A stretch of 64,000 nt of DNA. Origin: Erodium maritimum (Eukaryota > Streptophyta > Magnoliopsida > Geraniales > Geraniaceae). Positions 971-33,340 of this stretch are shown here, piece after piece (within the stretch, counting starts at the first letter, position 1; each line of letters opens with the position of its first letter). The position numbers and the translations under genes were made by a program. The stretch covers positions 1,679,001-1,743,000 of the forward strand of contig OY997596.1 in NCBI GenBank assembly GCA_963921825.1, written 5' to 3'. Below the pieces are notes generated by a model. It had not been told where the DNA came from and did no database searches. It saw nothing but the letters and a program-made list of their open reading frames with translations.

Positions 971-1051
971 GCACGAGTATCTCTACAAGCTGAACGAACG
1001 ATCGACGGGCGACGAACATCGGTCGAAATACGTTGCGCTTCGCAGGGTCGT

Positions 1052-7338: not shown

Positions 7339-7792
7339 CCGATGAATGTGAACGTTGAGTTTCCGAGCCGCGCATTTTTCGATATGGAAAATGGGATAGT
7401 GAAACAGAGAGGGAGAGTGAAGTTGTAGAAGTGTTGGTGTGAAATGAGAATGAGGTTAGGAGTATTTATAGGATTTGAATTAAGGGTTTTAAGAATTAAA
7501 AAAACGTAAACGGTCGGAATTTTTTTTCTTGCACGTGGTTGGTGGAGCCAACGAACCGCGTGCTACAGTCCGCGAACCGTTGTTACGAGTCACGGTCCGC
7601 AGACCGAACTGCGACTTCGCGGCCCGCGAACCACAAAGTCGTTGCTCGGTTCGCGGTTCACGTTCCGAACCGCGACTTTGCGGTTCACGGGCCGAGAAAA
7701 CCATGCACTACTACGCTGCGACTCGCGACCCGCAAACCGCAAAATCGTTCGGTTCACGGTTCACGTTCCAGTCTGTAGCACTGTGCATGCTC
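6702..7792 (-). mobile_element. PIF/Harbinger-like element, truncated by minisatellite
   Basis: The right end reads ...GTGCATGCTC followed by TAA. Read on the minus strand this is GAGCATGCAC, the usual start of plant PIF/Harbinger inverted repeats, next to a 3-bp TAA/TTA-type target site. Inside lie a subterminal zone (about 7545-7780) full of short CGCGAACC/GCGACT-like words in both orientations, a TATA-like TATAAATA (about 7464-7472, minus) and a broken ORF1. The other terminus is missing because minisatellite replaces it near 6702. No DDE transposase is present. Confidence 0.65.
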
Positions 7793-8207
7793 TAACATCC
7801 TGCTACATTACTTTCTCACGAACTTTATTTTATACCTTTAATTTTGAAAATGACAAAACTAACCATCCTCAAGACCCCCAAGTTTTGTGGGGTAATAGTC
7901 TTTTCCATAAGACTTTTAACGATATTATAGACGGTACAACTAAAAGAAAGTACAAGGTAACAACCGTTACAAAATAAAGATAAAAATAACAATCTACAGA
8001 CAATTTAAGGTACAGTATATTTTTTTCATTATCGCTATAACGAACTATTGCAAGGTGTAATTTGTTGAATCAGAATAAATATAGACCCTCTCAAACATGT
8101 AGATTTAAATAAACTTAAATCCAAGAATCAGAAAAATGTTTGGGGAACCCTATAGAAGTGAAATGTACAAGTTAGCAGGATACATGAAATGTTTACACAA
8201 ACCAGTT
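7793..8207. other. Intergenic / 3' flank of the R3HCC1L-like gene
   Basis: AT-rich sequence with no supported gene. Its right part should include the 3' untranslated region of the minus-strand gene that ends at 8208. No clear polyadenylation signal could be fixed by eye. Confidence 0.4.
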
Positions 8208-11200
8208 TTAATCATCACTGCCCCAAGCATCGTCTTTCAACTTTTGCCTGGAAACTATACGGTTCCTTCTTTCTTCTTCCTGTTTCCTGTATTCTCTGGA
8301 GCCGAAGCCTGCAGTTGGCAACTTCAATCCCATCCCGTGAGCAATCAGCCTCTGGGCGGTTCTTGCCGATGTCTTTGGTCTCTGCCTAGGAGGTTCCAGA
8401 TCTGACAGTGGATATATAGAATTAGTGGAGCATTATGTAACAATTAGGAACCCTATGCCTATTAGTTTGGTTTTTGGTTACTCGTCTCCCTTTCAATTCA
8501 TAACATATAATTCAGTGAGAGAGAGATAGAGACAGAGATGAGACAGACTGCAAAGTAATTTCTCAAATGCATATAAACGTTGTAGTAGACAAATGATCAA
8601 TGCAAATCGTGGGGAGCAGGGTTTTAAAACTCGGCGAGTTAGCGAGTAAGGATCTTTAGACTAATATGGGAGAAATCAGCAAAACTCGTTTTGTATCAAA
8701 TATACATACAGGAATACAATCCGTTGTTAACCCATCCTTATATTGTAAACTGTAAACCAATCTTAGCCATTAGATCCAGTATAATAGATGGTAAAGTTTT
8801 TTAAAAAAATCATTAATGGCATGAATTGTAAATATGTAAAACTTTGAATTTATTTTTATTATAAAAAAGAACACTAAAAGCATGGGCTGTTGGATCCACT
8901 CGATCTAATGATCCAAATGAGTTGACAGATTACAATATAAGGTTGGTTTACAACAGATAGTGGACACTGGACATTATAAAACAAGCCCACAGTTGACCAA
9001 GTTTGACCAATTTTGAACCGACTTCCACTTATCGAACGGGTGGTTAAGTTCCACTGAAGTATCATCTAGGTTTCTGAATTCTTAAAGTTCTCTACTAGCA
9101 TATAACTGAAGTAAGTCTATAACTATGGTTTACCTTTTGTTGTGACTGAGCTCAGAAGAATATCGTCTTCATCAAGTATACGTACAGTAAATGGAAATCG
9201 GATGCTGTTGCGGGCCTCAAGTGCTGCATTACAAGAACAATAACGAAAATCAACTGATATCACAACTTGAAGTGAACAGCATTTTCTAAAAATAACAATA
9301 GCATGATAACATCTAACATGTCTATGTTGCAGAGGCAAAAACAGAATTACCAATTGATGGCGTTTGAAAAACCGCAAGTGCAGTTGTATCATTGACCCAA
9401 CGAATAACAACTACACGATCTCGAAAATCTTCAAAAAGCTTTTCAAGCTCCGTCGTCCTAATGCTTGGTGAAAAATCAGCCAGTACAAGAACATGACGCG
9501 TACCATATCGTGCTGCATTACAAGTAACAAATATCTTACATCTTGTAATTCATTTAACATTGTTAATTACCTTTTTTACCCCAAAGTTTTATAACGTTCA
9601 ATAAGATTCCTTACATTTTGGTAAAACACCTTTAGTACCCCTTATGTATTGGGTACAGATCATTTAGTACCCTTAATGTATTGGTAACAGAACAATTACA
9701 TGCCTTATGAATTGGTCACAGATAATCAAAATGGTGTAAACTTGACCAAAATTTTGTCCAGTGTGTTACCAATACATAAGGGGTACTAAAGGTGTGTTAC
9801 CAATACATAGGGGGTACTAAAAGGTAATTAAGCCTAGTATTTGCAAAGCGTGCATAGTTCACAGCAAACCCTTCATTTAACCCAAATCTCAAGCATATAG
9901 AAACTTGATGTATAATAATCAACTGAAATACCAAGTACCCTATTTATTATACCAGCAAAAATCAAGTTTTTTCAACAGAAATAATTTCTTCTAAATCCTA
10001 GTAGTTTTTTTCTTTCAATGTTTTACTCAGTCAACACCTAAAAATACTCCTTTTATGTGTTTCAATAGTCATGGTAACAACAAAATGTAAACAGAGCTTT
10101 ATGATGCGTATTAAAGTGATGAAAAACACAACTTACAATGTCTTGTTTCTGGGTTTTCTACTGAACGTTGGCCTGGATCTTTACCCTCAGCATCCTCAAT
10201 CACAGACTGGTCATTTTTCTGTTCACTATACAATTCATCCTTCTTATACGAGAACGTCCCCCGCCCACGTCGCTTTGGAGCTTCAACTTTTACAGGAACT
10301 TTTGTATCTTTCAAAGAAAGTTCTGATACTTTAGATACGCATTCTGAAGGTAGTAATTCATCTGGTAGGCGATCTGCAACGGATTCCCAATCTGCAGTAC
10401 ACCATAATTTTTACATCCAAACATATCCTCCAAACACAATAACTTGTCGAACAAAATAAAAGCTGAAGAACTGGTTCTTTTTAGTAATGCGTATAAATCA
10501 ACACCATTGGTACTCTCTCTGATTTAAAATATGGAAAACGTATTTACACCCCCCGGCGACCTTTGGTTTTTAAATACACACCCTATAGGTGACCTTTCGT
10601 TATGCATCAAAAACCCACGGATTCCATTGGGTTTTTTGGAACAAATTAACAGAATCCATGGGTTTTTGATGAATAACGAAAAATGACAGTGTGTTACGAT
10701 AACCCCTCACCTATACAGTGTGTTTGTGAGAATCAAAGGTCGTCAAGGGTCTCTTATTAAAGTTAACCCTTAAAAATAAATGTCCTCAATTTTTGCCAAA
10801 AATCAAGGTTCGATGAAGTGTTCCAATTTTCCACTATGTTCTCATGCTCATCTAATTGCTAATATACTTGAGTGATAATAATTAACTCGTATGAAGGTAT
10901 TATTGGTCATTACACATAATGCACTTTCTCAAAACAAAGTGGACATTTCTTTTGAAACATCCATCGCCAGGGAGAGAGGTTCTTATTTTGGATCAGAGAT
11001 TGATTACATAAACATAAGAATTATTAAAATACAAGCAACAAGAACTTTTCAATCACATAAAGCAAAACAAGCACTCCAAGTCCAATCACATAAAGCAAAA
11101 CAAACACTCCAATATAGGCTTCCGACACAAATTAAACAACAAACTACCTACCAAGGAATTGCATTCATCAAAGAACATACTCTAACACGGCTTATAAGAG

Positions 11201-16273: not shown

Positions 16274-16525
16274 CTAAAACGACTGACAAAACGAGAATAC
16301 CTTTGTCCTCTCTTTCCCGATATCGTGATACCGAAGATGGAGATGGCGGACCGTAAGTATTATCCATTCTCTCTGTCAAATCTTGAAAGTGTTTTCCATC
16401 CTCTTCGTTCGATCTGAGAGTATTTGGTCAATCCGATTAAAATCGATAACTAACGTCTCTTGTCAATAAACAATCATGAACCACTAGCTAAAAGATAAAG
16501 ACGTGCTTAGAATATTCGACATCCC
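16274..16525. repeat. Flank repeat A (252 bp), left of LTR element 1
   Basis: This block is repeated at 23224-23475 with four substitutions by eye. It starts CTAAAACGACTGAC and ends GACATCCC, nine bases before the left LTR. It contains ATGGAGATGGCGGACC followed by GTAAGT, which looks like a short first exon with a splice donor, but no downstream exon was found. CACTA precedes both copies. Confidence 0.8.
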
Positions 16526-16533
16526 ATAAAACT

Positions 16534-18368
16534 TGACGCCCTGCGGGTTTAAACGCAAACTTGAGCACGGCAAGTGCACCGGCCGTCAAGTAGTAATCGG
16601 ATTTGAAGTTCGGAATATCGAGCCCAAAGGAGCAATAAACAAACACTTACTATTTAAAGCTTGTAGCTAAACTGTTTCAGTAAAAAAATCGAGTTTTTAA
16701 GTTTTGAAAATAAAAACTACAACGACTAAAAAGAAAATACAGAATTTAACAGAGAGTTTTCTTATCCTGAATCAAGTGAAGAGAGATCAAGGGCACGGGT
16801 TCATCGAGTTCATTCCATAAAATTGAACACGTTCGATTGTAGCGATGTCGATTTATTTTAGAGGCAACGAGTTGTCTCGAGTCTAGTCCTAACTTCTTTC
16901 GAACGATTCGGACCCTAATGGAATCTAACCACCGAGTTCTTTCGAATCACGATGTAGGAAGACCCAAAGCGTTAAGCTCTATGACAACTTCTAACTTTCG
17001 ACCAAACAAGTCTATGGCTATTGCAGTTGTTTTAACCCCGCTAGTTCTAGCTAGGATTTAAATCCAACCTATGATCAATTTTTGACTTAATTAGAATCCT
17101 CCTCTTTCGAGCGACGAATCCTAATTCGAAACAATTACCAAGCCTACACGGGAGGTAAAACATTAAGCACAAATCAATCATAGACACTAATACAAATCAA
17201 CAACACCACAATCGAAGCATTCAAAAAATGGAAATCCCTACTCTAATCCCCCATGGCCCTAGAAATTTGGGGGTTTAGGTGTTCATGGTGAGAAAATGCA
17301 AGAATGAAAAGAGACAAACAATTAAACTCATAATGAAGATAAAAGTTGAGATACAATCACCAAATTAGTCGTCTAATGTTGCTCTTCCTCTTCTTCGATC
17401 CCTCTCCTTGAAGCTCTTGAAGATCCACCAAAAGAAATCCACTTGTGTAGCCAACAATGGAGATTGTCTCCAAAAATCAACACTCAAATAAATCTCAAAT
17501 GATTCTCAAACCACCAAATATTTTGATTCTCCACAAATAATCCAAACTAATAAACTCACAATTTAATTCTATTAAAAAAAAATTGTACAAGAACTATTCC
17601 CTCTCGTTCGTGCTCTTGTGTTCTGTCTGCTCTGTTCAAATTAAAATGAAGAAGATCCCTCAATTCTGCTGCGGCGCTACAAATAAATGAGGAGGAGAGG
17701 AGCAGCTGCCCTAGCACGTGTCAGCAGATGAGAGGGGACAGCCGGTACAGGTGTCGCGAAGGGAGAGGCTGAGCTGAGGGACAGGTGGCAGGCTGGTGCT
17801 GGGTGGCGGCTGACGTGGGCCAGGCAGGGACAGGTGGCGCGAGCTGGGAGGATTGTGGCGGGTCCAGCGGAAGTGGCGGCTGGGTAGCGCCACGTGGCAG
17901 CAGGCGGAGGCGCCACGCGCGCGGAGGTGAGGGGCTGCTGGACACGTGTCACGAAGAGATGGAATGGCGGCGCCACGTGTCGCGAGCTGGGGTGAGCGGC
18001 GGCTGTGGTCGGGACACGTGTCAGCTCCTGGTTTGTGGTTCTATTTTTCAACCTTTTTCGCTATTTTGCTCGCTCCGGCTTCGTTTGGACTCCGATCGAT
18101 CTCGTTCTTGCGCCAAAAAATTCCTCTTTTCAATACCTACAAAACAAGACCAATCATGAATATATTTTGAAGCGGACAAAATCGACCCTCTTGACGGTCC
18201 ACAAGCACAAAACACCCAAAATACGCCGGAAATCCATCAAAACACCGAATATATCGATAAAATCAATTATTCATGCTAAACCTACATATATGATAGAGAA
18301 TCGGGACTAAAAGCCTATATATCTCGGTATAAAGTGGCTCTTTTATGTGTTAAAATGCACTCGCATCA
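16534..18368 (-). repeat. 3' LTR of element 1
   Basis: It begins TGATGCG (minus, at 18368) and ends GCGTCA (at 16534). The same terminal pattern, TGATG...GTCA, is seen in LTR element 2. Beyond its outer end lies AGTTTTATGG, which matches the start of the interior next to the primer site. That is unexpected outside a 3' LTR. Confidence 0.85.
17715..18020. promoter_or_regulatory. Cluster of five CACGTG boxes in LTR 1
   Basis: Five CACGTG palindromes lie at 17715, 17891, 17943, 17974 and 18015. Four of them sit in ACGTGTC context, the core of ABA-responsive elements and G-boxes bound by plant bZIP and bHLH factors. ACAGGTGTC/ACAGGTGGC words lie nearby. The same cluster is present in the 5' LTR from 22554. 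Its place within the LTR suits U3 enhancer sequence. Stress or ABA control is inference. Confidence 0.55.
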
Positions 18369-18411
18369 ACAACCCACACTTAGACTTTTCTCGCCCCGAG
18401 AAAACTGAACA
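18369..18411 (-). promoter_or_regulatory. Polypurine tract and upstream hairpin, element 1
   Basis: On the minus strand the sequence before the 3' LTR reads TTTCTCGGGGCGAGAAA, then TAAGTGTGGGTTGT, then the LTR start TGATGCG. The AAGTGTGGG part is the likely plus-strand primer. The TTTCTCG/CGAGAAA arms form a short perfect stem. The same arrangement precedes the 3' LTR of element 2. Confidence 0.6.
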
Positions 18412-20147
18412 TAAATAAATATAAACTAACTATGATAAATGCCAAGATAAACCCCGCGATACTATCTCCGTAGGCGGAGCTTGGCAACTCCGGGTTATTG
18501 AAAGCAGTAAATATGCATATGCTGACTCAACTAGACAAAAATTCCCGTGCAAATACACAAGCAAATTAAAGACCAAAAAATTAAGACTCAAAGAAGGTGT
18601 GTGCTTACACTTGGATTTTATCGGCAATTTAACCTAGAGCATGCATAAGGAATAAGATCTCTCATCATTCTTTTCTACTTTTCACCAACCAATTTTTACA
18701 AGCTGTAGATTAAGAGAGTATGTGTAGTGGTTTACAAGATGAAGTGCAATAACTAGAAAGATTTCAAGCCTAACTATTGTCAGTTAGCCCTTTGCTCTCT
18801 CGATTCTACATAACATAGTACTAATCAAGAGCATAACGTAATCTCATTCAAAAATCTTATGAGTGGGCGTTGTCATGCAATTACGTTGCCTTGGGACTAC
18901 GCGAATGGTAAACCTATTAGTTCCTTTACGAGTCAAGTGGTAGATCAAAGTTTTGCTTGGTTTTTTCGATTACGTGTCGAAACTTTGGATCATTAAGATA
19001 GGCTGGGGGGTTCACCTTTTATTACGCTATGATTAACTCAGGACATGAGGGTCTCACTCTGCATAGCGATCCGCCGCAGCCCCTCAAACCTTTGTTAATA
19101 CACAGATTTTATTGGATCCCCTTTCCCCGGGACCTATACTCAATTCCCCGTGCACAGTGTGTGTGATTTTGAAAAATTGGTACCACAAACGCACAATGAG
19201 ACTAACCACTTGAACTCGACTAGATTTATAATCTACCGAAACGCATAGTTCGATCCCAAGACAACAAGCATGTGGGCTCAACCTCCTATACATGCAACAA
19301 GTGAAATAAGACTAGTATCCCTTAACTAGGGCCACTATATGCAGAAATCAAGATAGAATCAGGTCGGTGACAATAAAAAGAATTGAAACCTAACCACACC
19401 TAACATTTGGTGTGACCGCCTTTTCGTGTTAAAGCATCTAGTATCACAAAATCATCATGAACCCAATAAGCAATATAGCACAAACACAAAATACAGCTCA
19501 TTAATACTACCAACAGTAAATCATCCAAACATTCCTCAAAAAACTTCAATGATGAAAATCTACTCCCGACTTGCTCAAGTTGTCCTAAATTGCACATCCA
19601 AGGTTTACACACAAAATAAAGACCCAAAAAAAAAATTACACCAAAAATGCATGAAGCACAGCATAGAATGCAAACATATAAATGCAAAGCATCCCACCCC
19701 ACACTTTAAACCTAAGCACTGTCCCCAGTGCGACTCTAAACATATACTTACACATACTTACACATGCACCCAATAGATGATAACAATAAACACCCCACAC
19801 TCAGAATCAGGCAACATACAAGTCAAGAAATCCTATATGCATGGTCTATCAGCACAACAATTCGGGTGCTCAGCACCCCCAGATAGCATATAAGAAATAC
19901 AATAGCGGTAAACAATTGAAAATAGGAAGGGAAGAGATACTGCCCCTCGAAGAACCGCTACTCGACTTGTGAGCTGACGTGGGAGTCCTAGTGTGCATGG
20001 ATGGATGGAAAGATCATCGGCCATGAGAACTTCTAAGAAGCTCGGCACCATGGCGTGTGACTAAACCGCTCATACTCTCCATCCATGGTTGGGGTGCCTC
20101 CCAACTAGCGCATTTGTTTAACGTCGTTAGCTCGACAGCTAGGAGGC

Positions 20148-21257
20148 TCAATCAGGAGGCCTCCCAAGAACCTCATACTTCCATCGCGTCCTCTTTTTCA
20201 AATATGGATGTGTATGCGGGAGAAGGAACACAATGTAGCAAATAAACCTCTTCCTTGAGTTCTGCACAAACTCCAAACTCAAGGCCAATCTCATCAAGCT
20301 TGCTTTAACAGAATAATCATGATCAAAATCATCTTTGCATAGCTTGGCAGGGATTTGAATCCCATGAATCGGAAAATGCACATACCCAAAAGGGTTAGTA
20401 GCATCTACCGAAATAGAATAATAACTCACAAACGGGAAATAAGAACTAGCAAATGAATCAAAAACTTTATGCTCAACATTAAATTTATAAATCAACGGTA
20501 TAGGTTGAACATAAAGATTTGATTTGCTAGAATCTAAGAATGAATCTCTCACACTAAATGGAATTTCGACATCATGCTCGATGTCTAGCAAAATAAAATC
20601 AATAGGAGATTCAAACATAACCCCTCTCTTGAGAGCATCTTCCATAGTACCCCTTGGATATCTAATAGATCTGTCAGCCAACTCTATGGATACTATGGGA
20701 AGATTTGGCTCAACAAGAGTTTGTGAACTATTTTCTACAACTGTACACTCATTATTTACATCTATATAATCCAATGCATCAAAACTACATGGAGATTGAT
20801 TTGGCATACTAGAAGAGGGATAAGAACTTGATACCTCACATTCCGCACTTACCTCTAAACTCATGGTTGAATCACGAGTTTCTTGCTCTGTTGTGTCACA
20901 TAAGTGCTCGGAATGATCATCCTCAATGTGGACTACTTGATCATCAAAGTTTGTCTCATTGATCAATTGTATGAGATCTTTCATTTGATTTTGAAGCTCT
21001 TGGACCATAAACGCTTGTTCCTCTTGTTTCCTCATCATCTCGTCCATCTTGCCCATCTCATCATGTCGCTTTTCCTCCTCAAATCGGTTTGGAAAAGCTA
21101 GACAAAAATCCTCTTCACTAGGCAGTTCAAAAGTGGAAGCGTCCCCCCAATTTTGACTATAGTCCCTTGAATGCAAAAGAACCTCGCAATTGTAAAAATA
21201 ATGATCATTAGCTCCACATATATCACAATTCCCATTATTAGGAAACCAATTCTCCAT
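20148..21257 (-). CDS. Retrotransposon ORF: N-terminal CCHC knuckle plus degraded protease-like region
   Basis: A 369-residue intact ORF starts at ATG 21257, about 94 bp after the primer site. An upstream TTG in frame is not a likely start. Residues 11-24 form a CCHC zinc knuckle (C11, C14, H19, C24), as in Gag nucleocapsid, but here at the very N-terminus with no capsid before it. About 80-115 is a helical Met/Glu/Gln-rich segment. Mid-protein, ELADRSIRYPRG followed by FILLDIEHDVEIPF matches the flap and second half of Athila/Tat-type aspartic protease. The catalytic D-S/T-G triad is not present. A homologous ORF lies at 28202-29398 in the other element. It probably acts as an RNA-binding or packaging protein for the element; this is inference. 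Confidence 0.75.
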   Translation of the reverse strand: MENWFPNNGNCDICGANDHYFYNCEVLLHSRDYSQNWGDASTFELPSEEDFCLAFPNRFEEEKRHDEMGKMDEMMRKQEEQAFMVQELQNQMKDLIQLINETNFDDQVVHIEDDHSEHLCDTTEQETRDSTMSLEVSAECEVSSSYPSSSMPNQSPCSFDALDYIDVNNECTVVENSSQTLVEPNLPIVSIELADRSIRYPRGTMEDALKRGVMFESPIDFILLDIEHDVEIPFSVRDSFLDSSKSNLYVQPIPLIYKFNVEHKVFDSFASSYFPFVSYYSISVDATNPFGYVHFPIHGIQIPAKLCKDDFDHDYSVKASLMRLALSLEFVQNSRKRFICYIVFLLPHTHPYLKKRTRWKYEVLGRPPD

Positions 21258-21350
21258 AAAAGCTATGATGCAAAGAATCAACTAAAAATAAATAAATACA
21301 AGAATGAAACAGACGTAGTACAAACTATATAGCAAGGGTCGCCTAATTGC

Positions 21351-21368
21351 TCCCCGGCAACGGCGCCA
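21351..21368 (-). other. Primer binding site (tRNA-Asp type), element 1
   Basis: TGGCGCCGTTGCCGGGGA on the minus strand starts 7 bases after the end of the 5' LTR. It is complementary to the 3' end of plant tRNA-Asp and is the usual primer site of Athila and many Tat-lineage elements. Confidence 0.88.
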
Positions 21369-21375
21369 TAAAACT

Positions 21376-23207
21376 TGACGCCCTGCGGGTTTAAACGCAA
21401 ACTTGAGCACGGCAAGTGCACCGGCCGTCAAGTAGTAATCGGATTTGAAGTTCGGAATATCGAGCCCAAAGGAGCAATAAACAAACACTTACTATTTAAA
21501 GCTTGTAGCTAAACTGTTTCAGTAAAAATCGAGTTTTTAAGTTTTGAAAATAAAAACTACAACGACTAAAAAGAAAATACAGAATTTAACAGAGAGTTTT
21601 CTTATCCTGAATCAAGTGAAGAGAGATCAAGGGCACGGGTTCATCGAGTTCATTCCATAAAATTGAACACGTTCGATTGTAGCGATGTCGATTTATTTTA
21701 GAGGCAACGAGTTGTCTCGAGTCTAGTCCTAACTTCTTTCGAACGATTCGGACCCTAATGGAATCTAACCACCGAGTTCTTTCGAATCACGATGTAGGAA
21801 GACCCAAAGCGTTAAGCTCTATGACAACTTCTAACTTTCGACCAAACAAGTCTATGGCTATTGCAGTTGTTTTAACCCCGCTAGTTCTAGCTAGGATTTA
21901 AATCCAACCTATGATCAATTTTTGACTTAATTAGAATCCTCCTCTTTCGAGCGACGAATCCTAATTCGAAACAATTACCAAGCCTACACGGGAGGTAAAA
22001 CATTAAGCACAAATCAATCATAGACACTAATACAAATCAACAACACCACAATCGAAGCATTCAAAAAATGGAAATCCCTACTCTAATCCCCCATGGCCCT
22101 AGAAATTTGGGGGTTTAGGTGTTCATGGTGAGAAAATGCAAGAATGAAAAGAGACAAACAATTAAACTCATAATGAAGATAAAAGTTGAGATACAATCAC
22201 CAAATTAGTCGTCTAATGTTGCTCTTCCTCTTCTTCGATCCCTCTCCTTGAAGCTCTTGAAGATCCACCAAAAGAAATCCACTTGTGTAGCCAACAATGG
22301 AGATTGTCTCCAAAAATCAACACTCAAATAAATCTCAAATGATTCTCAAACCACCAAATATTTTGATTCTCCACAAATAATCCAAACTAATAAACTCACA
22401 ATTTAATTCTATTAAAAAAAATTGTACAAGAACTATTCCCTCTCGTTCGTGCTCTTGTGTTCTGTCTGCTCTGTTCAAATTAAAATGAAGAAGATCCCTT
22501 AATTCTGCTGCGGCGCTACAAATAAATGAGGAGGAGAGGAGCAGCTGCCCTAGCACGTGTCAGCAGATGAGAGGGGACAGCCGGTACAGGTGTCGCGAAG
22601 GGAGAGGCTGAGCTGAGGGACAGGTGGCAGGCTGGTGCTGGGTGGCGGCTGACGTGGGCCAGGCAGGGACAGGTGGCGCGAGCTGGGAGGATTGTGGCGG
22701 GTCCAGCGGAAGTGGCGGCTGGGTAGCGCCACGTGGCAGCAGGCGGAGGCGCCACGCGCGCGGAGGTGAGGGGCTGCTGGACACGTGTCGCGAAGAGATG
22801 GAATGGCGGCGCCACGTGTCGCGAGCTGGGGTGAGCGGCGGCTGTGGTCGGGACACGTGTCAGCTCCTGGTTTGTGGTTCTATTTTTCAACCTTTTTCGC
22901 TATTTTGCTCGCTCCGGCTTCGTTTGGACTCCGATCGATCTCGTTCTTGCGCCAAAAAATTCCTCTTTTCAATACCTACAAAACAAGACCAATCATGAAT
23001 ATATTTTGAAGCGGACAAAATCGACCCTCTTGACGGTCCACAAGCACAAAACACCCAAAATACGCCGGAAATCCATCAAAACACCGAATATATCGATAAA
23101 ATCAATTATTCATGCTAAACCTACATATATGATAGAGAATCGGGACTAAAAGCCTATATATCTCGGTATAAAGTGGCTCTTTTATGTGTTAAAATGCACT
23201 CGCATCA
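21376..23207 (-). repeat. 5' LTR of element 1
   Basis: 1832 bp, nearly identical to the LTR at 16534-18368. It starts TGATGCG at 23207 (minus). The outer flank is CACTA and then, 11 bp later, flank repeat A'. It carries the same five CACGTG boxes and would drive transcription leftwards. Confidence 0.85.
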
Positions 23208-23223
23208 CACTAACTAAATCATC

Positions 23224-23475
23224 CTAAAACGACTGACAAAACGAGAATACCTTTGTCCTCTCTTTCCCGATATTGTGATACCGAAGATGGAGATGGCGGA
23301 CCGTAAGTATTATCCATTCTCTCTGTCAAATCTTGAAAGTGTTTTCCATCCTCTTCGTTCGATCTGAGAGTATTTGGTCAATCCGATTAAAATCGATAAC
23401 TAACGTCTCTTGTCAATAAACTATCATGAACCACTAGCTAAAAGATAAAGGCGTGCTTAGAATATTTGACATCCC
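23224..23475. repeat. Flank repeat A' (252 bp), right of LTR element 1
   Basis: Second copy of the 16274-16525 block, with four substitutions. It starts 16 bp after the outer end of the 5' LTR and continues into unrelated sequence (TTAAGGTGACC). The two copies therefore bracket the whole LTR element as direct repeats. Confidence 0.8.
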
Positions 23476-24048
23476 TTAAGGTGACCTGATAAGATTTATA
23501 CGAAAATATTGATGTCTTGGTAAAATATTAAAAATATAAATCAATTAACAGACATCTTGGTTCCCTGTCAAGTCTGGTATACACTCGACATCTTGGTTCC
23601 CTCACTCCCTGATGTTCTCCCTGGATGTCCACCTAGCTCTCTAACGCCCTTTATCATTTTGTGTGAGCATCTTCAGGTCGAGTCAGGAAGTGACTCCCAT
23701 GATTTGTTGATAAGTAGCCATCTATGTGGAGACTATCCATCGATAGATTGTCCCTGCATTAACCAGGCATTTATTATAGGGCTAGCGTCTGGCACTTATG
23801 GGTTAGGACTCAATTCTCACCCTTTTGTTTCTCTTATACGAGAGTTCTTCTATTTCAGGTCTTATGGTTTAGCTACGTCTGTACCTTTGATTTCTTATCT
23901 AATAAAACTCCTATATGCTAAAAAAATATGGAAATAAACTTCAACTTTTATTGAACCCCAAATATTACAACCCAAAAAAAATAAAGTTGAAGCATACATC
24001 AGATGTCCTTAAGTATACAAATACGAGTCTTGACCACAACACATAATC
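23476..24048. other. Unassigned sequence, possible LINE remnant
   Basis: A plus-strand frame of 126 residues (23557-23937) ends near CTATATGCTAAAAAAATATGG, which could be a decayed non-LTR 3' tail. No diagnostic motif was found. The right part may be the 3' flank of the ORF1 pseudogene ending at 24049. Confidence 0.3.
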
Positions 24049-25393
24049 TCATAACTCACACAACATTGTTGCGTGTCGTTCCATCTCTAGTTCGATTAAA
24101 TTTGAATCGTCTTGAAGATGCATTTCGTTGTACTGGTTGAAGAGTTCGTGCCATTTTGTGGTGAGCATGATGAATTTTTCTGCCTTCTTGGACTTTGCTC
24201 AGTCCACCTCTGATTCTGCTCGAACCGCATCTGCCTTTACTCGATCCATGGTTTCCACTACTTCAGCTTGCTTTTGGACACTCTTCCCTTTCCTCTTTAT
24301 GGACTTCTTTCCCGATTATTTTTGTTCACGTGGAAGGACACTTCGGTTACTAGTTCCCTTGTTCGGATTGGTGGATACCCCATCCGGTTGGGACTCACCA
24401 CCGAGAGGTGTAGTATCGTCATCATTGGTGGGAGGACAAGTGGGTGGAGTTGAGCTGTAAGCCCTAAGTTTATCCAACTGTTGTCTCCATGCACCGGTCA
24501 TGCCTTCCTCCGCCGTAAACTTCTCCTCGAACTTCAGAATGTTATACCAATGGTCGAGGTTGAACACCTTTGGTTTACCGGGATTCTTTATGTCATAATA
24601 GGTCTTCTTGGCATTCTTGTTGTAGCCTGCTTCGCTGTAACCGCTAGGAAAAATATCCCTCAACTTCGTCAAAATATTGTGGTACCTCCACACCCGAGGG
24701 AAATGTCTGTTCCACTAGTTCTTGATTTTCTTTCAATTGAAACGATGGTGACGATCCCCTTCGTTGTACAGTCTGGAAATTTTCCCCCAAAAGGTTGAAC
24801 TATCTTGTTGGTTTCCCTTCGATGTATCTCTCGCCGCGCTTAGCCAAACGCGGATGAGGTGTATGTCAGCTTCATGGGTCCATTTTCTTATATACCCTTT
24901 GGGTTGTTGGGAAGGGCCAGTAGAGGATGACTGAGACGACATCCTAATACCGCTGTTTTGGCCGACGTTATATTAAGGATCGGGGTACCCGTAATAATTG
25001 GAAACCAGATTATGGGTCATGAAAGGGGGGGGGGGGGGGGGGGGTTGAAAGGGGAGGGGTGAAATTAATAATAAAATAAATTAAAATTGTAACTAAGAAA
25101 ACAAAATAAATTTAGTAAATATAATGAAAGATTATTAATAAAATAAATTAAAAGTTAAAACAACAAAATGAAATGAAAAATAGGCGTTGAAAGCACCTAA
25201 GATGAAACCAGGTTGCATGTAAGGACACAGGAAAAAAAACCGTCTGATTGCATGAAAGGGTTGTTGTTTAGGTTGATGTTCAAGATCTGTTGAAAGCCGT
25301 TGGGCTGATCTAGGTTGAAATCGATTTTCTCAGTACATCCTCGTGTTGATCTTGATCCGGTGGAGACGACGTCCGAGTCTCGTTGTCGGACAT
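24049..25393 (-). pseudogene. PIF/Harbinger ORF1-like (SANT / NAM-associated) pseudogene
   Basis: The minus-strand start MSDNE lies at 25393 and the conserved end (MERHATMLCEL, stop) at 24049. In between, in several frames, come MSSQSSSTGP, a SANT-like domain (KWTHEADIHLIRVWLSAARDT, FWGKISRLYNE), then W..Y.ILTKL, a KPKVFNLDHWYNILKFEEKF block and a charged coiled-coil tail. This order matches plant proteins labelled glutathione S-transferase T3-like or NAM-associated, which are Harbinger ORF1 relatives. Frame breaks at about 24740 and in the N-terminal region, plus a 20-base G run at 25025-25044, show that it is dead. A TATA-like TATAAATA lies near 25495. Confidence 0.7.
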
Positions 25394-25820
25394 TTTTCTT
25401 GATCGAAAACAAACTTTGGGAAAGGTGGAATTTAAGAGAGAAAGTTGATAAATGAGGAGAAAATGTGTGTGGGTTGATGAAAGGGGGGGATGTATTTATA
25501 GATGGGGAAATTAAATTTTGGGGGTTAAAATTCGGATTTTATTTAATTAAAAAAACTAATTATTGCTGACCGTTAGAGCCAACGACCGAATTTTTCCACA
25601 CTAGTACCACGTATCACGCTTCCATTGGCTGGCCGCCGACTTGTAAATCACGACTTATGGTTCATGTTTGTGAGTCGTGAATCGCAACTCGCAGTTATGA
25701 CTCATGGTTTAGTGAGTCGGAACCGCACAAATCGCATGCCACAACGTGCGACTTGCGGTTCACTAAACTATGAGTCGTGAACCGTGAATCGCGTGTCAGG
25801 CTGCGATGATGTGAATGCTC
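25394..25820 (-). mobile_element. Terminal region of a PIF/Harbinger element
   Basis: The end reads GTGAATGCTC at 25820 followed by TTA, that is GAGCATTCAC on the minus strand with a TTA target base triplet. Just inside (about 25620-25800) is a zone of repeated GTGAACCG, GCGACT, GAGTCGTGA and AACCGCA words in both orientations, like that at 7545-7780. The matching left terminus was not found before 24049. Confidence 0.6.
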
Positions 25821-25823
25821 TTA

Positions 25824-26663
25824 CAATACACCCTTAAGAGCCTCAAATAACCTCTTTAAGACTGCATGCACAAAATTTATGTCATTAATTCATGCCCCCA
25901 ATCAATGAACCCTAAATTACATATCACCCTTTTTCCAGTGCCAAGTGCTCCGCTAGATGGGGTAAAATGTTAACCTGGAGTAGACTCGAGTTTTTAATAC
26001 TGACATTTATGATCTTTAATCAACATACTCGAACCCCCACATCCACATTGAGCTTCACCACCATGGGTTGGAACGTTCCACCTAACCACCGGTTCCTATC
26101 CTTTCCTCTTAACCTTCAGCATATCATATCTCAAGAAAGCAACACGGAATTCCTGAATTCACCCCTGACAGTTAGCAACCACCATGTCAAAATGTGTACT
26201 TCTACTCCCTGCAAGAATTTATTTTTCTCCCTTTATATGCAACAAGATAAATCGGTCACTTCAAAGAAACTCAGGGGACAGAGTTTCGTTTATGGTCAAG
26301 ACAATGTCCCAATCGACCAGACCCACGACCTTGACACCCCATGCGGCAATAAGGGTTTCTTCCCACACTACCATGACCATTGGATACCCAAACATAGTGT
26401 TTCCAATAGTCTCTACCCACCGCTACATCTGCAATATATCGGGGTAACCAAAACAAGTCACCTCATCAACCTTGCCTTCGAGGGAAGGATATCATGGAAA
26501 AAAATGTCAAATGAAGACTCTGGAACAGGGAATCACACCTTGACTTCACAAAAACACCTCCTTCAAATCAAACATCCAGACCCGAACTATATTCACCCTC
26601 GTCTTTCCCCTCTTGGTATGGAGAATTGCATGTACTAGTTACCATTAGACATTTCATGAGTGT
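25824..26663. other. Unassigned sequence with a 223-residue open frame
   Basis: A plus-strand frame runs from 25967 to 26638. Its composition is uneven and I recognise no domain. The reverse frames contain broken, vaguely coding-like stretches. It may be the left part of a decayed retroelement interrupted by LTR element 2, whose right flank resumes at 32698, but this is a guess. Confidence 0.25.
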
Positions 26664-28077
26664 TGATGTGGACATAAAATACATCTATTTTAGATGTCAT
26701 TAGCCCACATTTATGCTCTTTTTAGTCCCGAGTTAATATGAAATGATGCATTTTACTCTCGTATTGTGTATTTGGTCTTGTTTCAGGGTTCATCAAGTTT
26801 TCGGAGCAAAAAGGGGCAATTTGGGAGTGAAACGGAGCGAATTTGGAAGTTGGGCAGAAGTGTCAGCAACATGCACCAGTTTGTTGCACGCCATGCAACA
26901 AACTGGTGCACTCAGAACAGAGGAGTCAAGAATCTGCACCATTTTCTTGCACGGCGTGCAAGAAACTGGTGCAACTTAAGTGCACCAGAAACTTGCACGG
27001 CGTGCAAGCGACCGTGCAAGCGTCAAAAACGCGATTTCCAGCTGCGTTTCCTATTTTTTATCAGAGTTAACCCGTCATATAAAAGGGAATTTAGGTCAGA
27101 TTGAAGGGGATCACGAAATTGAAGAGAAAAGGTCACTTTTTGAGAGAACTTGGAGAACTTGGGGAACTTGGAGAAGATCAAAGGAGAACTACTAGAATCA
27201 CATTGAGGTTTTTGTAGTTTGGTTTGTTTCTGAATACTTGTATTGCTATTTTCAGTTAATATGAGTATGATTATTTCAATCCTTCTCTTGTGTTCTTGTC
27301 TCTTTGTTATGAACTAAGTTTATATCGATCTAGGGCTAGGGGGAACGATGTGATGAATTGATTGAGCATATTTAGGTCATATACTTATAAACTAATACTA
27401 GAAAAGTGTTTATCCATTTCCGTTCGTAATGCTACATTGCCTTGATCACGTACATGTATGATTAAATCTTGTTAACCAACAATTGAGAAATGAGGTTAAA
27501 AAGAGGAAAAAAGAATTGGATAGCTCGGGTTTCAATCTAGGCTAGAATATGGCTAGACTGACACGAGTGCAATAGCTATAGGTGTAAAACCCGAAAGTTA
27601 GAGGAATTCATAGATCGTAATGCTTTATACCGCTCTACACCTAGATTAGAGATAATTAGGTGGACCGAGTGTATTAGGGTCCTAATACGATCGAGAGATG
27701 GTTAGGACTACTTAAAGAGAATTCCCGTTGCCCTTAAAATAGTATTAGTTATAAATGTATGCCAAATATCGTTAAGTTGTTCATCTCATTCGACCCCCGT
27801 TAATGTCCTAGATCGTCTTTTATCTCTGATTTACAATCCATTTGTGATTTTGTGCTCTGTTTTCGAATCATTTATATATTCTCAGTACTTGCATGAATTT
27901 ACATTTTACAAACCAAAACCAAACATCGTTATAGGAATAGCTTGACCATCGAATTAATTAACTAAAGTGCTTGTCTAATTGCTCCCTTGGGTACGATATC
28001 TCGGACTTAAACCCGAATACTACTTGACGACCGATACGCTTGCCGTACCATTCTGAGGGTTAAATCTCAGAGTGTCA
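26664..28077 (+). repeat. 5' LTR of element 2
   Basis: It starts TGATGTGG and ends GAGTGTCA. It includes a run of long perfect and near-perfect hairpins (26872-27020), described separately, and a stretch around 27070-27190 of repeated GAGAACTTGG words. Confidence 0.9.
26872..27020. repeat. Tandem hairpins in LTR 2
   Basis: Hairpin 1 (26872-26910) is a perfect 17-bp stem, TGCACCAGTTTGTTGCA and its complement, around the loop CGCCA. Hairpin 2 (26935-26973) has the same design, with stem TGCACCATTTTCTTGCA, one mismatch and loop CGGCG. A third partial stem, CTTGCACG/CGTGCAAG, follows at about 26991-27009. All recur in the 3' LTR from 31491. They would fold in either strand and in RNA. Confidence 0.85.
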
Positions 28078-28083
28078 AGTTAA

Positions 28084-28101
28084 TGGCGCCGTTGCCGGGG
28101 A
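28084..28101 (+). other. Primer binding site (tRNA-Asp type), element 2
   Basis: TGGCGCCGTTGCCGGGGA, identical to the site in element 1, starts 6 bases after the 5' LTR. It marks plus-strand orientation and the Athila/Tat type of priming. Confidence 0.88.
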
Positions 28102-28201
28102 GCAACTAAGGCAACTCTGATACGTTTATAATTCGTGTTAAGACTATTTCAATTTTTATTTGTATATATTTTTATAGTTGATTCATTGCATTATTACTTT
28201 T

Positions 28202-29398
28202 ATGGAGAATTGGTATTGTGATATTGCGTATTGTGATTGTTGCGGAGCTTATGATCATTCTAACTATAATTGTGAGTACTTGAATTCAAATGCATATTGT
28301 CAATATTGGGAGGAGCCTTCCACTTGTGATCAAGGTTATCAAGTTGAACCACAAGAGTCTTCCTCCAAACTGGAGCAGATGATGTTAACCATGATGGCAC
28401 AGATGAAGGAGGATAGAAAAGAGATGATTGAGTTGTATAAGGCATCTGTGCAGGAGCAGCAGACAGTGAACCAGAACAATGATTCCCGGTTCCAGAAGTT
28501 GGAAATTCAATTGGGCCAAATAGCCAATCCAATTAATCAAATAAATCCTCTTATACAAGTGGTGAATGAGAGAGCTCTACACGATCAAGCAATTCACATT
28601 GGGGAAGATCATTCCGAGCACTTAGGTGATACAACAAAACAAGAAACTCATTATCCAACCATGAGTTTAGAGGTAAGTGCGGAATGTGAGGTATCAAGTT
28701 CTTACTCCTCTTGTACTGTATCTATTCCATCTCCATGTAGTTTTGATGCTTTGAATTATGTAGATGTAAATAATAATTGTATAATTGTAGAAAATAGTTC
28801 ACAAACTCTTGCTGAGCCGAATCCTTCCATAGTATCCATAGAGTTGGCTGACAAATCTATAGTATATCCAAGGGGTACTATGGAATATGCTCTCAAGAGA
28901 GGGGTTGTATTTGAATCTTCCATTGATTTTATTTTGGTAGACATCGAGCATGATGTCGAAATTCCCTTTAGTATGGGATATTCATTCTTGGATTCTAGCA
29001 AATCAACTCTTTATGTTCAACCCATCCCATTGATTTTCAAAATTAACATTGAGCATAGAGTGCTTAATATAAAGCATAATTTTTGTGATGTATTTCCTAG
29101 TACTCATTCCCTGTTTGTGAGCTGTTACTCTATTGTGGTAGATGCTCTTGACCCTCGTTGTCATGAGCATCATCCGTTTCTTGGGAATCATGTCGCTATC
29201 AAGTTGTGCCAAGATGAATGTGATCACAATTATTCAGTTAAAGCAAGCTTGATGAAGCTAGCCTTGAGTTTGGAGCTCTTACAAAACTCAAGGAAAGGGT
29301 TCTTATGCTACATTGTGTTCCTTCTCCCGCCTTTCTATCTACACTTGAAGAGGAGGACGCAATGGAAGTATGAGACGTTCGGGAGGCCTCCTGATTGA
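28202..29398 (+). CDS. Retrotransposon ORF: N-terminal CCHC knuckle plus degraded protease-like region
   Basis: A 398-residue intact ORF starts at ATG 28202. The same MENW start and the same knuckle positions (C11, C14, H19, C24) occur in the element 1 ORF. About 55-125 is Met/Gln/Glu-rich and holds FQKLEIQLGQIANPIN, a motif known from Athila-type Gag downstream of the capsid. ELADKSIVYPRG and FILVDIEHDVEIPF mark the protease-like part, again without a catalytic D-S/T-G triad. The C-terminal third (SVKASLMKLALSLELLQNSRKGF, WKYETFGRPPD) is conserved with element 1 and unrecognised. Intact ORFs in two different elements suggest the protein is useful to them; its exact role is unknown. Confidence 0.75.
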   Translation: MENWYCDIAYCDCCGAYDHSNYNCEYLNSNAYCQYWEEPSTCDQGYQVEPQESSSKLEQMMLTMMAQMKEDRKEMIELYKASVQEQQTVNQNNDSRFQKLEIQLGQIANPINQINPLIQVVNERALHDQAIHIGEDHSEHLGDTTKQETHYPTMSLEVSAECEVSSSYSSCTVSIPSPCSFDALNYVDVNNNCIIVENSSQTLAEPNPSIVSIELADKSIVYPRGTMEYALKRGVVFESSIDFILVDIEHDVEIPFSMGYSFLDSSKSTLYVQPIPLIFKINIEHRVLNIKHNFCDVFPSTHSLFVSCYSIVVDALDPRCHEHHPFLGNHVAIKLCQDECDHNYSVKASLMKLALSLELLQNSRKGFLCYIVFLLPPFYLHLKRRTQWKYETFGRPPD

Positions 29399-31240
29399 GC
29401 CTCCTACCCGTCGAGCTAACGACGTTAAACAAATGCGCTTGTTGGGAGGCACCCCAACTATGGATTGGAGAGCGTATGGACATTGATCACATGCAAGGCG
29501 CCGGGCTCACACGAGCTCGATCGGTCGAGGAGTTCTCCATCCATCTATGCATCACAAGATCCCCACGTCAGTGGCATACCACACAGCGGTTCTTCGAGGG
29601 GCAGTTTTCTTACCCTCTTGCTTATTATTGTTTTTTTCGCTGTTTTACTCCTATATGTCATCTGGTGGGTGCCGAGCACCCGAATTGTTGTGCTGATAGT
29701 ATAAACATATAGGACTGTATGGTGGTTGAATCTATGCTAACTAACAAGTGTGGGGTGACATGTTCTGAATATTTGTTGTGGGATGCATCTGGTCAATTAT
29801 GTTAGAGTCGCACTGGGGACAGTGTTGTGTTTTAAAGTGTGGGGTGGGGTGCTTGCATTTCTTGCATTTCATTTCACACTTTTGGTCTGCATATTGTGCT
29901 GCATTGAAAAAAATAAATCAAAATAAATCAAAAAAATATTTTCTGGTGATATGATTGAGTAAGAGAGTGCAGGTTCTTAGGACTTCGATGATTGAACTGT
30001 TACACATGCTAGTTTCTTACACTGTTCAAATAATACATAGATTATCATGAATGAATTAAGTAGAGTAAACACATGCATTAAGATCGCTCTTTTGCTTGCA
30101 CTTTGAGTGTTTACTTGATTAGTCGTTGCTTCCTTTGATTCCTATGCATTGTAAGCTGAGTCTAGAACTACTTGTGTATCCCAGTCGAGGCAAAATAGAA
30201 TGAGGAACATGGTTAAATTGAGAAAATGATTCTAGGCCATCCTTGGAACGTTTGAGCCAAATCTCTAACCTTACATTATTTTCTTAGTCACCCATTTTGA
30301 GCCTATGGCCTTTCGTTTCTAACCATTACATCACAAACCTATGTGCCCATCATTTCTTGTATATCCTCATGTTATTTTTGAACCCATATTTCGTGTCTTA
30401 TGTGCTTCATGAGAGGGGGTGTTGGGGATGTAATTGTGAGTTGAGTGATTACAAGGAAAAGGAAGTCTTGATGATAATATGCCATTTGGTTTGTGGAAAA
30501 AAAAGAGAAAAGAAAAAGAAAATAAGATAGAGACCTCTCTTTTACCCAAGGAATTTAATGGGTAAGAAAAAGGAAAACAAAATCGAGAGAGGAGAAACAA
30601 AAAGGTGAAATAAAAGGGGCAAAAGAAAAAAATATATATATATTAGCCCAACAAGTAGACTCAAAAAGAGTGTCTAAGAAATGGTTTGGTAGAGACTTGA
30701 GGTGAAAGTAAGCGGGATGTGTGAAAAGTGGTTAGGGGGTGAGATGAAGCATGTTTGACACGTTTTATTTTATGAGCTTCGTGTTTTAAATCCTTTCCAT
30801 GCCCTTTGCCTAGCCATACATTACAATCCGAATATAAGTCCTTTTTGATTCTGGATTGCCATGATTCCTCACGATTAGTGGAGATGAGATTAACTAGTAG
30901 CATATGAATCTCTAAGATCCGTGTAGTAGGGAAAAAAGGAAGCGCACTAGTAAAGTGAACGAGGAGGTGTTAGGGAGTCGGTCTTTAATGTGAGTAGCAA
31001 CTTTCTTATATGCATTCATCGGTTCATGTGTTTTCTTGAACTTTGTTCGATCTTGTAGTGTGTAATTCTGAGAAAGCTCTTATGAACCACAAGCACACTT
31101 TAACTCAGTCATCACCAATTTTTCGTAACCTTTTTGCATGCTGCATCTTTATATTACCATGCTTGAATAAAGGAGGCCCGGACTCCTCCTATCGGGGTGA
31201 ACCTCGGGGTTTAACCGGAACATATCTTACTGCTTTGTTA
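29399..31240 (+). other. Non-coding interior of element 2 with blocks shared with element 1
   Basis: Shared blocks include the stretch just after the ORF stop (GAGCTAACGACGTTAAACAA...GGGAGGCACCCCAAC, about 29414-29457), GTGCCGAGCACCCGAATTG (about 29671-29689), and GTCGCACTGGGGACAGTG with GTGTGGGGTGGGGTGC (about 29806-29852). In element 1 they occur in the same order on the minus strand (about 20130, 19870, 19730-19690). Conservation outside the ORF suggests packaging or replication signals. Confidence 0.6.
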
Positions 31241-31247
31241 ATTTAAT

Positions 31248-31282
31248 TTTCTCGGGGCGAGAAAAGCTTAAGTGTGGGGTGT
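31248..31282 (+). promoter_or_regulatory. Hairpin and polypurine tract, element 2
   Basis: TTTTCTCG-GGG-CGAGAAAA forms a perfect 8-bp stem with a 3-base loop. It is followed by GCTTAAGTGTGGGGTGT, then the 3' LTR. Element 1 has the same stem and nearly the same tract at the equivalent place. Confidence 0.65.
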
Positions 31283-32697
31283 TGATGTGGACATAAAATA
31301 CATCTATTTTAGATGTCATTAGCCCACATTTATGCTCTTTTTAGTCCCGAGTTAATATGAAATGATGCATTTTACTCTCGTATTGTGTATTTGGTCTTGT
31401 TTCAGGGTTCATCAAGTTTTCGGAGCAAAAAGGGGCAATTTGGGAGTGAAACGGAGCGAATTTGGAAGTTGGGCAGAAGTGTCAGCAACATGCACCAGTT
31501 TGTTGCACGCCATGCAACAAACTGGTGCACTCAGAACAGAGGAGTCAAGAATCTGCACCATTTTCTTGCACGGCGTGCAAGAAACTGGTGCAACTTAAGT
31601 GCACCAGAAACTTGCACGGCGTGCAAGCGACCGTGCAAGCGTCAAAAACGCGATTTCCAGCTGCGTTTCCTATTTTTTATCAGAGTTAACCCGTCATATA
31701 AAAGGGAATTTAGGTCAGATTGAAGGGGATCACGAAATTGAAGAGAAAAGGTCACTTTTTGAGAGAACTTGGAGAACTTGGGGAACTTGGAGAAGATCAA
31801 AGGAGAACTACTAGAATCACATTGAGGTTTTTGTAGTTTGGTTTGTTTCTGAATACTTGTATTGCTATTTTCAGTTAATATGAGTATGATTATTTCAATC
31901 CTTCTCTTGTGTTCTTGTCTCTTTGTTATGAACTAAGTTTATATCGATCTAGGGCTAGGGGGAACGATGTGATGAATTGATTGAGCATATTTAGGTCATA
32001 TACTTATAAACTAATACTAGAAAAGTGTTTATCCATTTCCGTTCGTAATGCTACATTGCCTTGATCACGTACATGTATGATTAAATCTTGTTAACCAACA
32101 ATTGAGAAATGAGGTTAAAAAGAGGAAAAAAAGAATTGGATAGCTCGGGTTTCAATCTAGGCTAGAATATGGCTAGACTGACACGAGTGCAATAGCTATA
32201 GGTGTAAAACCCGAAAGTTAGAGGAATTCATAGATCGTAATGCTTTATACCGCTCTACACCTAGATTAGAGATAATTAGGTGGACCGAGTGTATTAGGGT
32301 CCTAATACGATCGAGAGATGGTTAGGACTACTTAAAGAGAATTCCCGTTGCCCTTAAAATAGTATTAGTTATAAATGTATGCCAAATATCGTTAAGTTGT
32401 TCATCTCATTCGACCCCCGTTAATGTCCTAGATCGTCTTTTATCTCTGATTTACAATCCATTTGTGATTTTGTGCTCTGTTTTCGAATCATTTATATATT
32501 CTCAGTACTTGCATGAATTTACATTTTACAAACCAAAACCAAACATCGTTATAGGAATAGCTTGACCATCGAATTAATTAACTAAAGTGCTTGTCTAATT
32601 GCTCCCTTGGGTACGATATCTCGGACTTAAACCCGAATACTACTTGACGACCGGTACGCTTGCCGTACCATTCTGAGGGTTAAATCTCAGAGTGTCA
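31283..32697 (+). repeat. 3' LTR of element 2
   Basis: 1415 bp. It matches the 5' LTR except for G instead of A near 32654 and one extra A in the run near 32130. It ends GAGTGTCA followed by AGTATC. Confidence 0.9.
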
Positions 32698-32702
32698 AGT
32701 AT

Positions 32703-33340
32703 CAATATGTATCTCTATCTTATTCTATGGCAGTAGATTGGTTTATTTCAGTTTTGTTTGTGCTTATTGTTTGGGATTCCGGGTTCTGACCTTTTCTTCC
32801 TATTGTGCATCATGGTGGCTATATGCGGGTGTGGGTCTCCTTTTTTAGCCGTCTTTTTCTTTCCCGGGTCTGCGTACCCACTCATTTCAGGGCCTGCGTA
32901 CCCATTCACTTCAGGGTCTGCGTACCCATTCACTTCAGGGTCTGCGTACCCATTCATTTCAGGGTCTGTGTACCCTTCCATTTCAGGGTCTGCGTACCCA
33001 TTCACTTTCACTTCATATGTTTCCCCGGTGTGGGGTTACAGGGTCTGCGTACCCTTTCATTACTTCAATCAGGGTCTGCGTACCCTTTCATTACTTCATT
33101 CAGGGTCTGCGTACCCTTTCATTACTTCATTCAGGGTCTGCGTACCCTTTCATTACTTCATTCAGGGTCTGCGTACCCTTTCATTACTTCATTCAGGGTC
33201 TGCGTACCCATTCATAGCTACTAGGGTGGTAGTCGTTCATGTGATCCTTTTTTGTTGGAGAGTCTGTAGCTAGACTCTCTTCTTGTACTCCTCTTCCTCC
33301 TTGAGAGAGGTTTAATTTAATTATGTCTTGCTGATAAAAA
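32703..33340 (+). mobile_element. Non-LTR element 3' part with VNTR
   Basis: The right end (GTCTGTAGCTAGACTC..., a GAGAGGTTT block, TTGCTGATAAAAAAAAAA) closely resembles the end at about 37200-37285, a LINE-type 3' tail. Upstream is a VNTR. The left boundary coincides with LTR element 2, so the element may be split by it. Confidence 0.5.
32866..33217. repeat. GGGTCTGCGTACCC VNTR, 12 copies in two periods
   Basis: The 14-bp core GGGTCTGCGTACCC (with single-base variants) occurs twelve times. The first six copies are spaced about 24 bp apart with TTCACTTCA-type spacers. The last six are spaced about 31 bp apart with TTTCATTACTTCATTCA spacers. A 40-bp interruption (about 33001-33040) separates the two series. 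It is not a CRISPR: spacers are themselves repeated and the genome is a plant's. Confidence 0.9.

Follow-up and report, generated by a model that had tools for sequence, protein, structure and literature searches.

Two LTR elements of Erodium maritimum share a knuckle-first, capsid-less reading frame with Gag- and protease-derived parts

The stretch of DNA considered here (the window) comprises 64,000 nucleotides of Erodium maritimum, positions 1,679,001 to 1,743,000 of contig OY997596.1 in assembly GCA_963921825.1, and contains two long terminal repeat (LTR) elements, A and B, each with one open reading frame (ORF) between its LTRs (Table 1). A model reading of the letters alone (the first-pass annotation) had described the two ORFs as homologous, opening with a CCHC knuckle and lacking a capsid, and this is borne out: the proteins align end to end (225/401 residues identical, 56%, E 1e-142), both start with a CX2CX4HX4C knuckle whose residues align, and the capsid domain (Retrotrans_gag), which is strong in the partner Gags L060, L062 and L064 introduced below, has no Pfam match in either. 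Reverse transcriptase (RT) and integrase likewise have no Pfam match in ORF A or ORF B, and no further ORF of at least 150 amino acids (aa) is listed between the LTRs of either element, in agreement with the original description, as are the nearly identical LTRs within each pair. The LTRs of A and B had been called unrelated; they are largely different, but near their 3' ends one stretch of 83 nt is 81% alike and one of 151 nt is 70% alike. Common to both elements are also the primer site and 32 nt at the side of the polypurine tract (PPT). The single ORF, LTR pair and primer binding site (PBS) by which TR-GAG elements are recognized are present in both.

Table 1. Features of elements A and B (window positions; for the parts of ORF A, protein residues)
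Feature	Position	Strand	Basis or remark
Element A 3' LTR	16524..18368	-	99.7% identity to 21366-23207
Element A PPT-like end TTTTCTCGGGGCGAGAAAAG...AAGTGTGGG	18370..18404	-	94% identity to element B over 32 nt
Element A 3' noncoding region	18369..20136	-	94.25% identity to family X (L066 633-2395), 1774 bp
Conserved block GTCGAGCTAACGACGTTAAAC..., start of shared 3' region	20087..20136	-	also present after family X long frame
Element A ORF, 369 aa	20148..21257	-	ORF list and alignment
Element A PBS TGGCGCCGTTGCCGGGGA	21351..21368	-	sequence; identical in aligned X, Y, Z leaders
Element A 5' LTR	21366..23207	-	pair with 16524-18368; related LTRs elsewhere in genome
Element B 5' LTR	26660..28080	+	99.86% identity to 31279-32700
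Element B PBS, 18-mer as in element A	28084..28101	+	sequence
Element B ORF, 398 aa, homologue of element A ORF	28202..29398	+	ORF list and alignment
Conserved block GTCGAGCTAACGACGTTAAAC... in element B	29410..29459	+	sequence
Element B 3' noncoding region	29900..31270	+	94-98% identity, 39 other scored places incl. family Y and Gag-PR-only elements
Element B 3' LTR	31279..32700	+	pair with 26660-28080
ORF A: knuckle	1-30		
ORF A: Gag-spacer coil	31-102		
ORF A: acidic linker	103-186		
ORF A: protease C-half without catalytic motif	187-262		
ORF A: C-terminal part	263-369		

The two ORFs are members of a large family. A search of the genome (763 Mb, 40 contigs) gave 111 scored copies out of 1476 candidates with ORF A and 104 out of 1580 with ORF B, and with copy numbers of this order the similarity of the two exceeds chance. 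The frame of the A type is kept open beyond neutral expectation. This was seen in a sample drawn without regard to the ORF, namely the 40 best matches (542 candidates) to the 3' noncoding stretch of element A, whose surroundings were read from hand-entered table rows near each match: 28 lie behind the ORF, 8 behind a Gag match, and 4 were left unassigned. Twenty of the 28 ORF copies are stop-free (19 full-length, the window copy included, and one partial), five have stops and three have short frames. At the divergence of the A copies the chance of a neutral frame staying open is about 0.034 per copy, an estimate that assumes a star tree and takes its indel rates from 17 copies. The excess persists when all unassigned matches are counted as broken (20/32) and when tandem copies are collapsed (17/25), while the binomial p values presuppose independent copies and are illustrative. 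Non-triplet gaps per pair number 0 in the ORF against 7.0 in the noncoding part (17 copies, in an alignment selected for the ORF). An open frame in 20 of 28 copies also separates the A type from LARD elements, which are defined by having no coding capacity. The LTR pairs of seven elements (A, B, L013, L014, L016, L023 and L025) differ by 0.1-2.1%, less than the roughly 5% by which A copies differ from one another, so most of the change predates insertion and the youth of the copies alone does not explain the open frames. The counterpart sample for element B, 40 scored of 1041 candidate matches to its 3' region, holds 16 ORF rows besides a mosaic described below; 7 are stop-free over the whole ORF and 2 are stop-free partial copies, the neutral estimate above covering A only.

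Constraint on the amino acids was followed segment by segment in a codon alignment of 42 sequences, from which L001-L006 had been removed because longer loci duplicate them, L007, L008 and L013 because of stops, and L046 because its N-terminus is missing. Of these, 37 (20 of group A, 17 of group C) entered the segment and polymorphism counts, without two tandem duplicates, L047, L048 and ORF B; the noncoding alignment held 18 sequences, later 17. Plain NG86 ratios of nonsynonymous to synonymous change (dN/dS, or w) of 0.54-0.83 between groups were rejected as a sign of purifying selection and count as no evidence, because neutral simulations with transition bias give 0.58-0.82. The protease-like segment alone is under clear purifying selection, and constraint on the ORF as a whole is weak. 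At residues 187-262 w is 0.36-0.40 in all three comparisons (A, C and A-C); it is 0.49-0.75 in the knuckle, 0.90-0.95 in the C-terminal third, where no constraint is seen (p = 0.45), and 1.3-1.5 in the acidic linker, where the excess over neutral is not significant (p = 0.16). Changes that at least two copies have in common, and that were therefore passed on through transposition, stand at 13 nonsynonymous to 17 synonymous in this segment, against 45/19 for singletons (p = 0.022); the inherited ratio is below the neutral one (w about 0.28, p = 6e-4) and below that of the remaining inherited changes (p = 0.001). These segment p values are optimistic, because the segments were drawn after a first look at the data.

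In a profile comparison with hhalign, ORF columns 59-288 align to positions 408-767 of the Gag-protease (Gag-PR) of the partner families (probability 99, E 8.7e-18), first the spacer and then the portion of the protease past its DLGAS half. The protease-like core without a catalytic triad that was first noted can therefore be refined: its homologue is the C-terminal half of the partner protease, and the catalytic D-x-G motif of retropepsin is missing, the strong match starting past the DLGAS half. Searched alone, the segment has a match in 7 of 12 partner loci, several of the remaining five being without that part. The coil of ORF B matches the Gag spacer of family Y (z 25; about 70% identical by hand count on the alignment), and the best match of the spacer of one C subtype is family Z (z 8.4). 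For the knuckle, a search of 12 partner loci with residues 1-45 gave no match below E 0.5. For the C-terminal third, which had been called novel, neither Pfam, NCBIfam and PDB nor the partner pieces read (middle of pol excluded) yield a relative; copies found through it alone have frames of at least 365 aa in 84 of 150 scored cases, and among 150 scored of 600 candidates it never lies in a frame longer than 414 aa. Sequence searches of Pfam, NCBIfam and PDB with both ORFs gave no convincing family, six short patterns had no match in viral contigs, and AlphaFold2 gave no usable fold for the two window ORFs (mean predicted local distance difference test score, pLDDT, 33.8).

Likely autonomous partners had been proposed, and families that match in leader, primer site, 3' region and LTR ends are present in the same genome. 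They were taken from the best Retrotrans_gag matches (150 scored of 7597 candidates), of which 11 Gag loci were read: L060, L061 and L063 of family X; L055, L056, L064 and the mosaic L057 of family Y; and L053, L054, L062 and L065 of family Z. Family X has one frame of 1830 aa at C4:2448380, with capsid and protease by Pfam. The leader of element A is close to that of X, its 3' region up to the LTR is matched by the piece past the X long frame (L066), and the first 400 bp of the two LTRs are 83% identical. Element B shares its leader with family Y (L056: 92% over 91 nt). According to a tally made by hand from position rows, the 40 scored matches to the B 3' region fall behind a knuckle ORF in 17 cases (one being the mosaic), about 1.2 kb behind a Gag-PR stretch in 6 (frames up to 942 aa), at 3-8 kb behind Gag-PR in 10 (7 of them at 5.7-6.3 kb) and behind a Gag match in 2, with 5 unassigned. 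As the backbone of A is that of X and the backbone of B that of Y, the ORF occupies the site of each backbone's long coding frame. Both the TGGCGCCGTTGCCGGGGA primer site and the DLGAS protease motif, features of Athila, were found with the partners, and A and B are probably Ty3/gypsy elements of the Athila/Tat lineage. We take TGGCGCCGTTGCCGGGGA to be an Athila-type PBS, presumably of the tRNA-Asp type.

The six Gag-PR-only loci form a third type on the B backbone and lie at an almost constant 1.22 kb or so from the 3' region (C3:64061747, C4:35940191, C4:50969354, C3:25089752, C2:9324124 and C6:5022763; two with frames of 941-942 aa). They were considered as a source of the C-terminal third, but the one read, L068, does not bear this out, its end having no match to the ORFs; by eye this end resembles the post-protease stretch of L063.

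We think it fairly probable that A and B are non-autonomous partners packaged by X or Y, and that they encode an accessory protein made of Gag and pseudoprotease parts and kept by selection; the role of the protein and the autonomy of X and Y are what we infer from sequence comparison. A number of results weigh against this. Once the site counts allow for transition bias, w over the whole ORF comes to 0.88 (A), 0.80 (C) and 0.92 (A-C), not the ratio well below 1 that the first-pass annotation had looked for, and among Gag controls from X and Z 14 of 15 pairs fall at 0.28-0.52 (the exception, X60-X61, has w 1.68 from 17 changes; synonymous sites are saturated in the nine X-Z pairs). Over the whole ORF, inherited changes (180/76) do not differ from single ones (206/86; p = 1), and within family A divergence is the same at codon positions 1-3 as in noncoding DNA. 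When all changes are counted, the contrast between the protease-like segment and the remainder has p = 0.004 in A, p = 0.15 in C and p = 0.047 for the two combined, and constraint on the knuckle falls short of significance (p = 0.08). The coil of ORF A is closest to family X, but weakly (z 5.2). Stops occur in 7 of the 16 B-type ORF rows, and the A-type copy L018, its ORF open, has LTRs (2700-3446 and 7604-8362) that are 14% different, so that it is either an old copy or one with an exchanged LTR. Finally, the closing 200 aa of the X frame gave no match in Pfam or PDB, whether to RT, integrase or anything else, and none of 150 scored RT matches (18162 candidates) lies inside it.

Part of this is what one would expect of a decaying relic, in which an old internal deletion left a chance Gag/protease frame that is open only through the youth of its copies: a whole-ORF w near neutral, flat codon positions within family A, and broken copies in the samples drawn through 3' noncoding DNA (8/28 A-type, 7/16 B-type). 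We nevertheless regard it as improbable, given that the A copies have diverged well beyond their LTR pairs (L018 apart), that neutral lineages would be expected to have lost the frame (probability of staying open about 0.03), that the protease-like segment is constrained, and that the ORF persists in two backbones. The concern that the ORF might usually be broken is answered in the A type, where 20 of 28 copies are stop-free against about 3.4% expected under neutrality; the B-type sample is less clean. A role in cis, in which the open frame itself is needed, for instance for protection from nonsense-mediated decay or for translation-coupled packaging, and the protein does little, would account for a frame that stays open in a protein whose greater part evolves at nearly the neutral rate; it fits poorly with the amino-acid constraint on the protease-like segment and with nearly invariant knuckle residues (C11, C14 and H19 in 42/42 copies and C24 in 41/42, in a set chosen for intact ORFs), and we consider it possible but unlikely. 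Of the selected protein first proposed, then, the open frame and the constrained segment stand and the low whole-ORF ratio does not. The original observation is confirmed and its interpretation partly supported.

A mosaic locus bears on the partnership. At C1:124875900-124880400, L057 combines a B-like LTR (86%) and the primer site with a Y-type capsid Gag, to which the rest of ORF B is fused in frame within the spacer; the joint frame contains two stops. Joins of this kind arise by template switching between co-packaged RNAs, as a study on Onsen describes (PMC5668417), so the RNAs of Y and B probably shared a particle. Partnership with an autonomous relative gains from this suggestion of co-packaging. 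In the 11 Gag loci, which are among the best-scoring Gags and thus a biased sample, no knuckle of the pattern C-x2-C-x3-5-H-x3-5-C is found in any open frame; the single match to the pattern is in L057, with stops inside. One could imagine a split nucleocapsid, in which the autonomous Gags lost their zinc knuckle and the small partner would supply it in trans on a scaffold of Gag spacer and pseudoprotease, making passenger and driver mutually dependent; this is improbable, being based on the absence of a knuckle in 11 biased loci.

For the favoured reading, of partners packaged by X and Y that encode an accessory protein, the following course may be envisaged. In each element a cassette replaces the long coding frame of the larger backbone, which is X in the case of A and Y in that of B; it encodes one protein of 370-400 aa, with an N-terminal CCHC knuckle, a post-capsid Gag spacer, a non-catalytic protease half and a C-terminal extra. 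The small RNA would be packaged and reverse-transcribed by the proteins of X or Y by way of the shared leader, primer site, PPT and LTR ends. The protein may enter partner Gag assemblies through its spacer and folded pseudoprotease, which would leave the knuckle free to bind the element RNA, the weakest step. The same domains would also suit interference, in which pseudoprotease and spacer compete with, and slow, the maturation of the partner Gag-Pol in favour of the non-autonomous RNA. A catalytic half that is missing while the remainder is constrained is consistent with this; the AlphaFold2 models offer no dimerisation surfaces at their low pLDDT, and we rate it very improbable.

The nearest described system we found is the wheat centromeric pair RLG_Quinta and RLG_Cereba, a non-autonomous element and its autonomous partner (PMC11302176). 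LTR ends, PBS and PPT are common to both partners there, as they are to A and B with X and Y at the LTR ends, PBS and PPT side; Quinta, too, has one ORF with a Gag part and an extra domain without assigned function, and recombination around the ORF. Unlike ORF A and ORF B, Quinta, which originated from Cereba, codes for a Gag domain, while elements A and B have no capsid, an N-terminal knuckle and a retained protease half. TR-GAG elements, whose movement was shown in Arabidopsis ddm1 (PMC8704663, which cites Chaparro 2015 for them), are likewise single-ORF non-autonomous LTR elements with Gag-derived coding; according to the same text TR-GAG encodes Gag, and ORF A and ORF B are without capsid. 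The spacing of the knuckle is that of Diaspora, a soybean Athila relative with a CX2CX4HX4C knuckle in Gag and a DLGAS protease motif; in Diaspora the knuckle lies within a full Gag-Pol (PMC1142308), and none occurs in the 11 Gag loci of this genome that were read. The B backbone also carries the separate Gag-PR-only group besides the capsid-less ORF. In soybean, Du et al. in 2010 reportedly described an autonomous-nonautonomous partnership with LTR swapping, which A and B would resemble as one non-autonomous lineage with more than one LTR type. Among the titles and abstract openings listed by searches of one open-licence library, none describes a capsid-less knuckle-first ORF, which is no proof of its absence from print.

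Non-autonomous LTR elements are mostly regarded as coding-free parasites or Gag donors. Here two backbones keep open the frame of a capsid-less protein derived from Gag and protease, in which a protease fragment without the catalytic motif is under selection. Whether passengers encode proteins that direct their own packaging thereby becomes testable, as does whether a knuckle-less partner Gag needs such passengers.

Some minor observations may be added. No 5-bp target site duplication is visible by eye at element A or element B, and a 256-bp direct repeat (98%; window 16274-16529 and 23224-23479) lies on both sides of element A; taken together these indicate that the insertions may not be simple. 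Elsewhere in the genome, chains of the ORF at a spacing of about 4.8 kb (C1:122993240-123008949, C1:149634194-149644998 and C2:81260076-81266005) look as if they were LTR-internal-LTR-internal arrays. Just behind element B (window 32857-33215) there are short tandem arrays of 24 and 31 bp with a GGGTCTGCGTACCC-type unit. At the other end of the window, positions 1-6023 are a tandem array of 1296-bp units, in which an identical minus-strand ORF of 164 aa with a CCHC-like CFMCNGPHRAMDC motif occurs five times.

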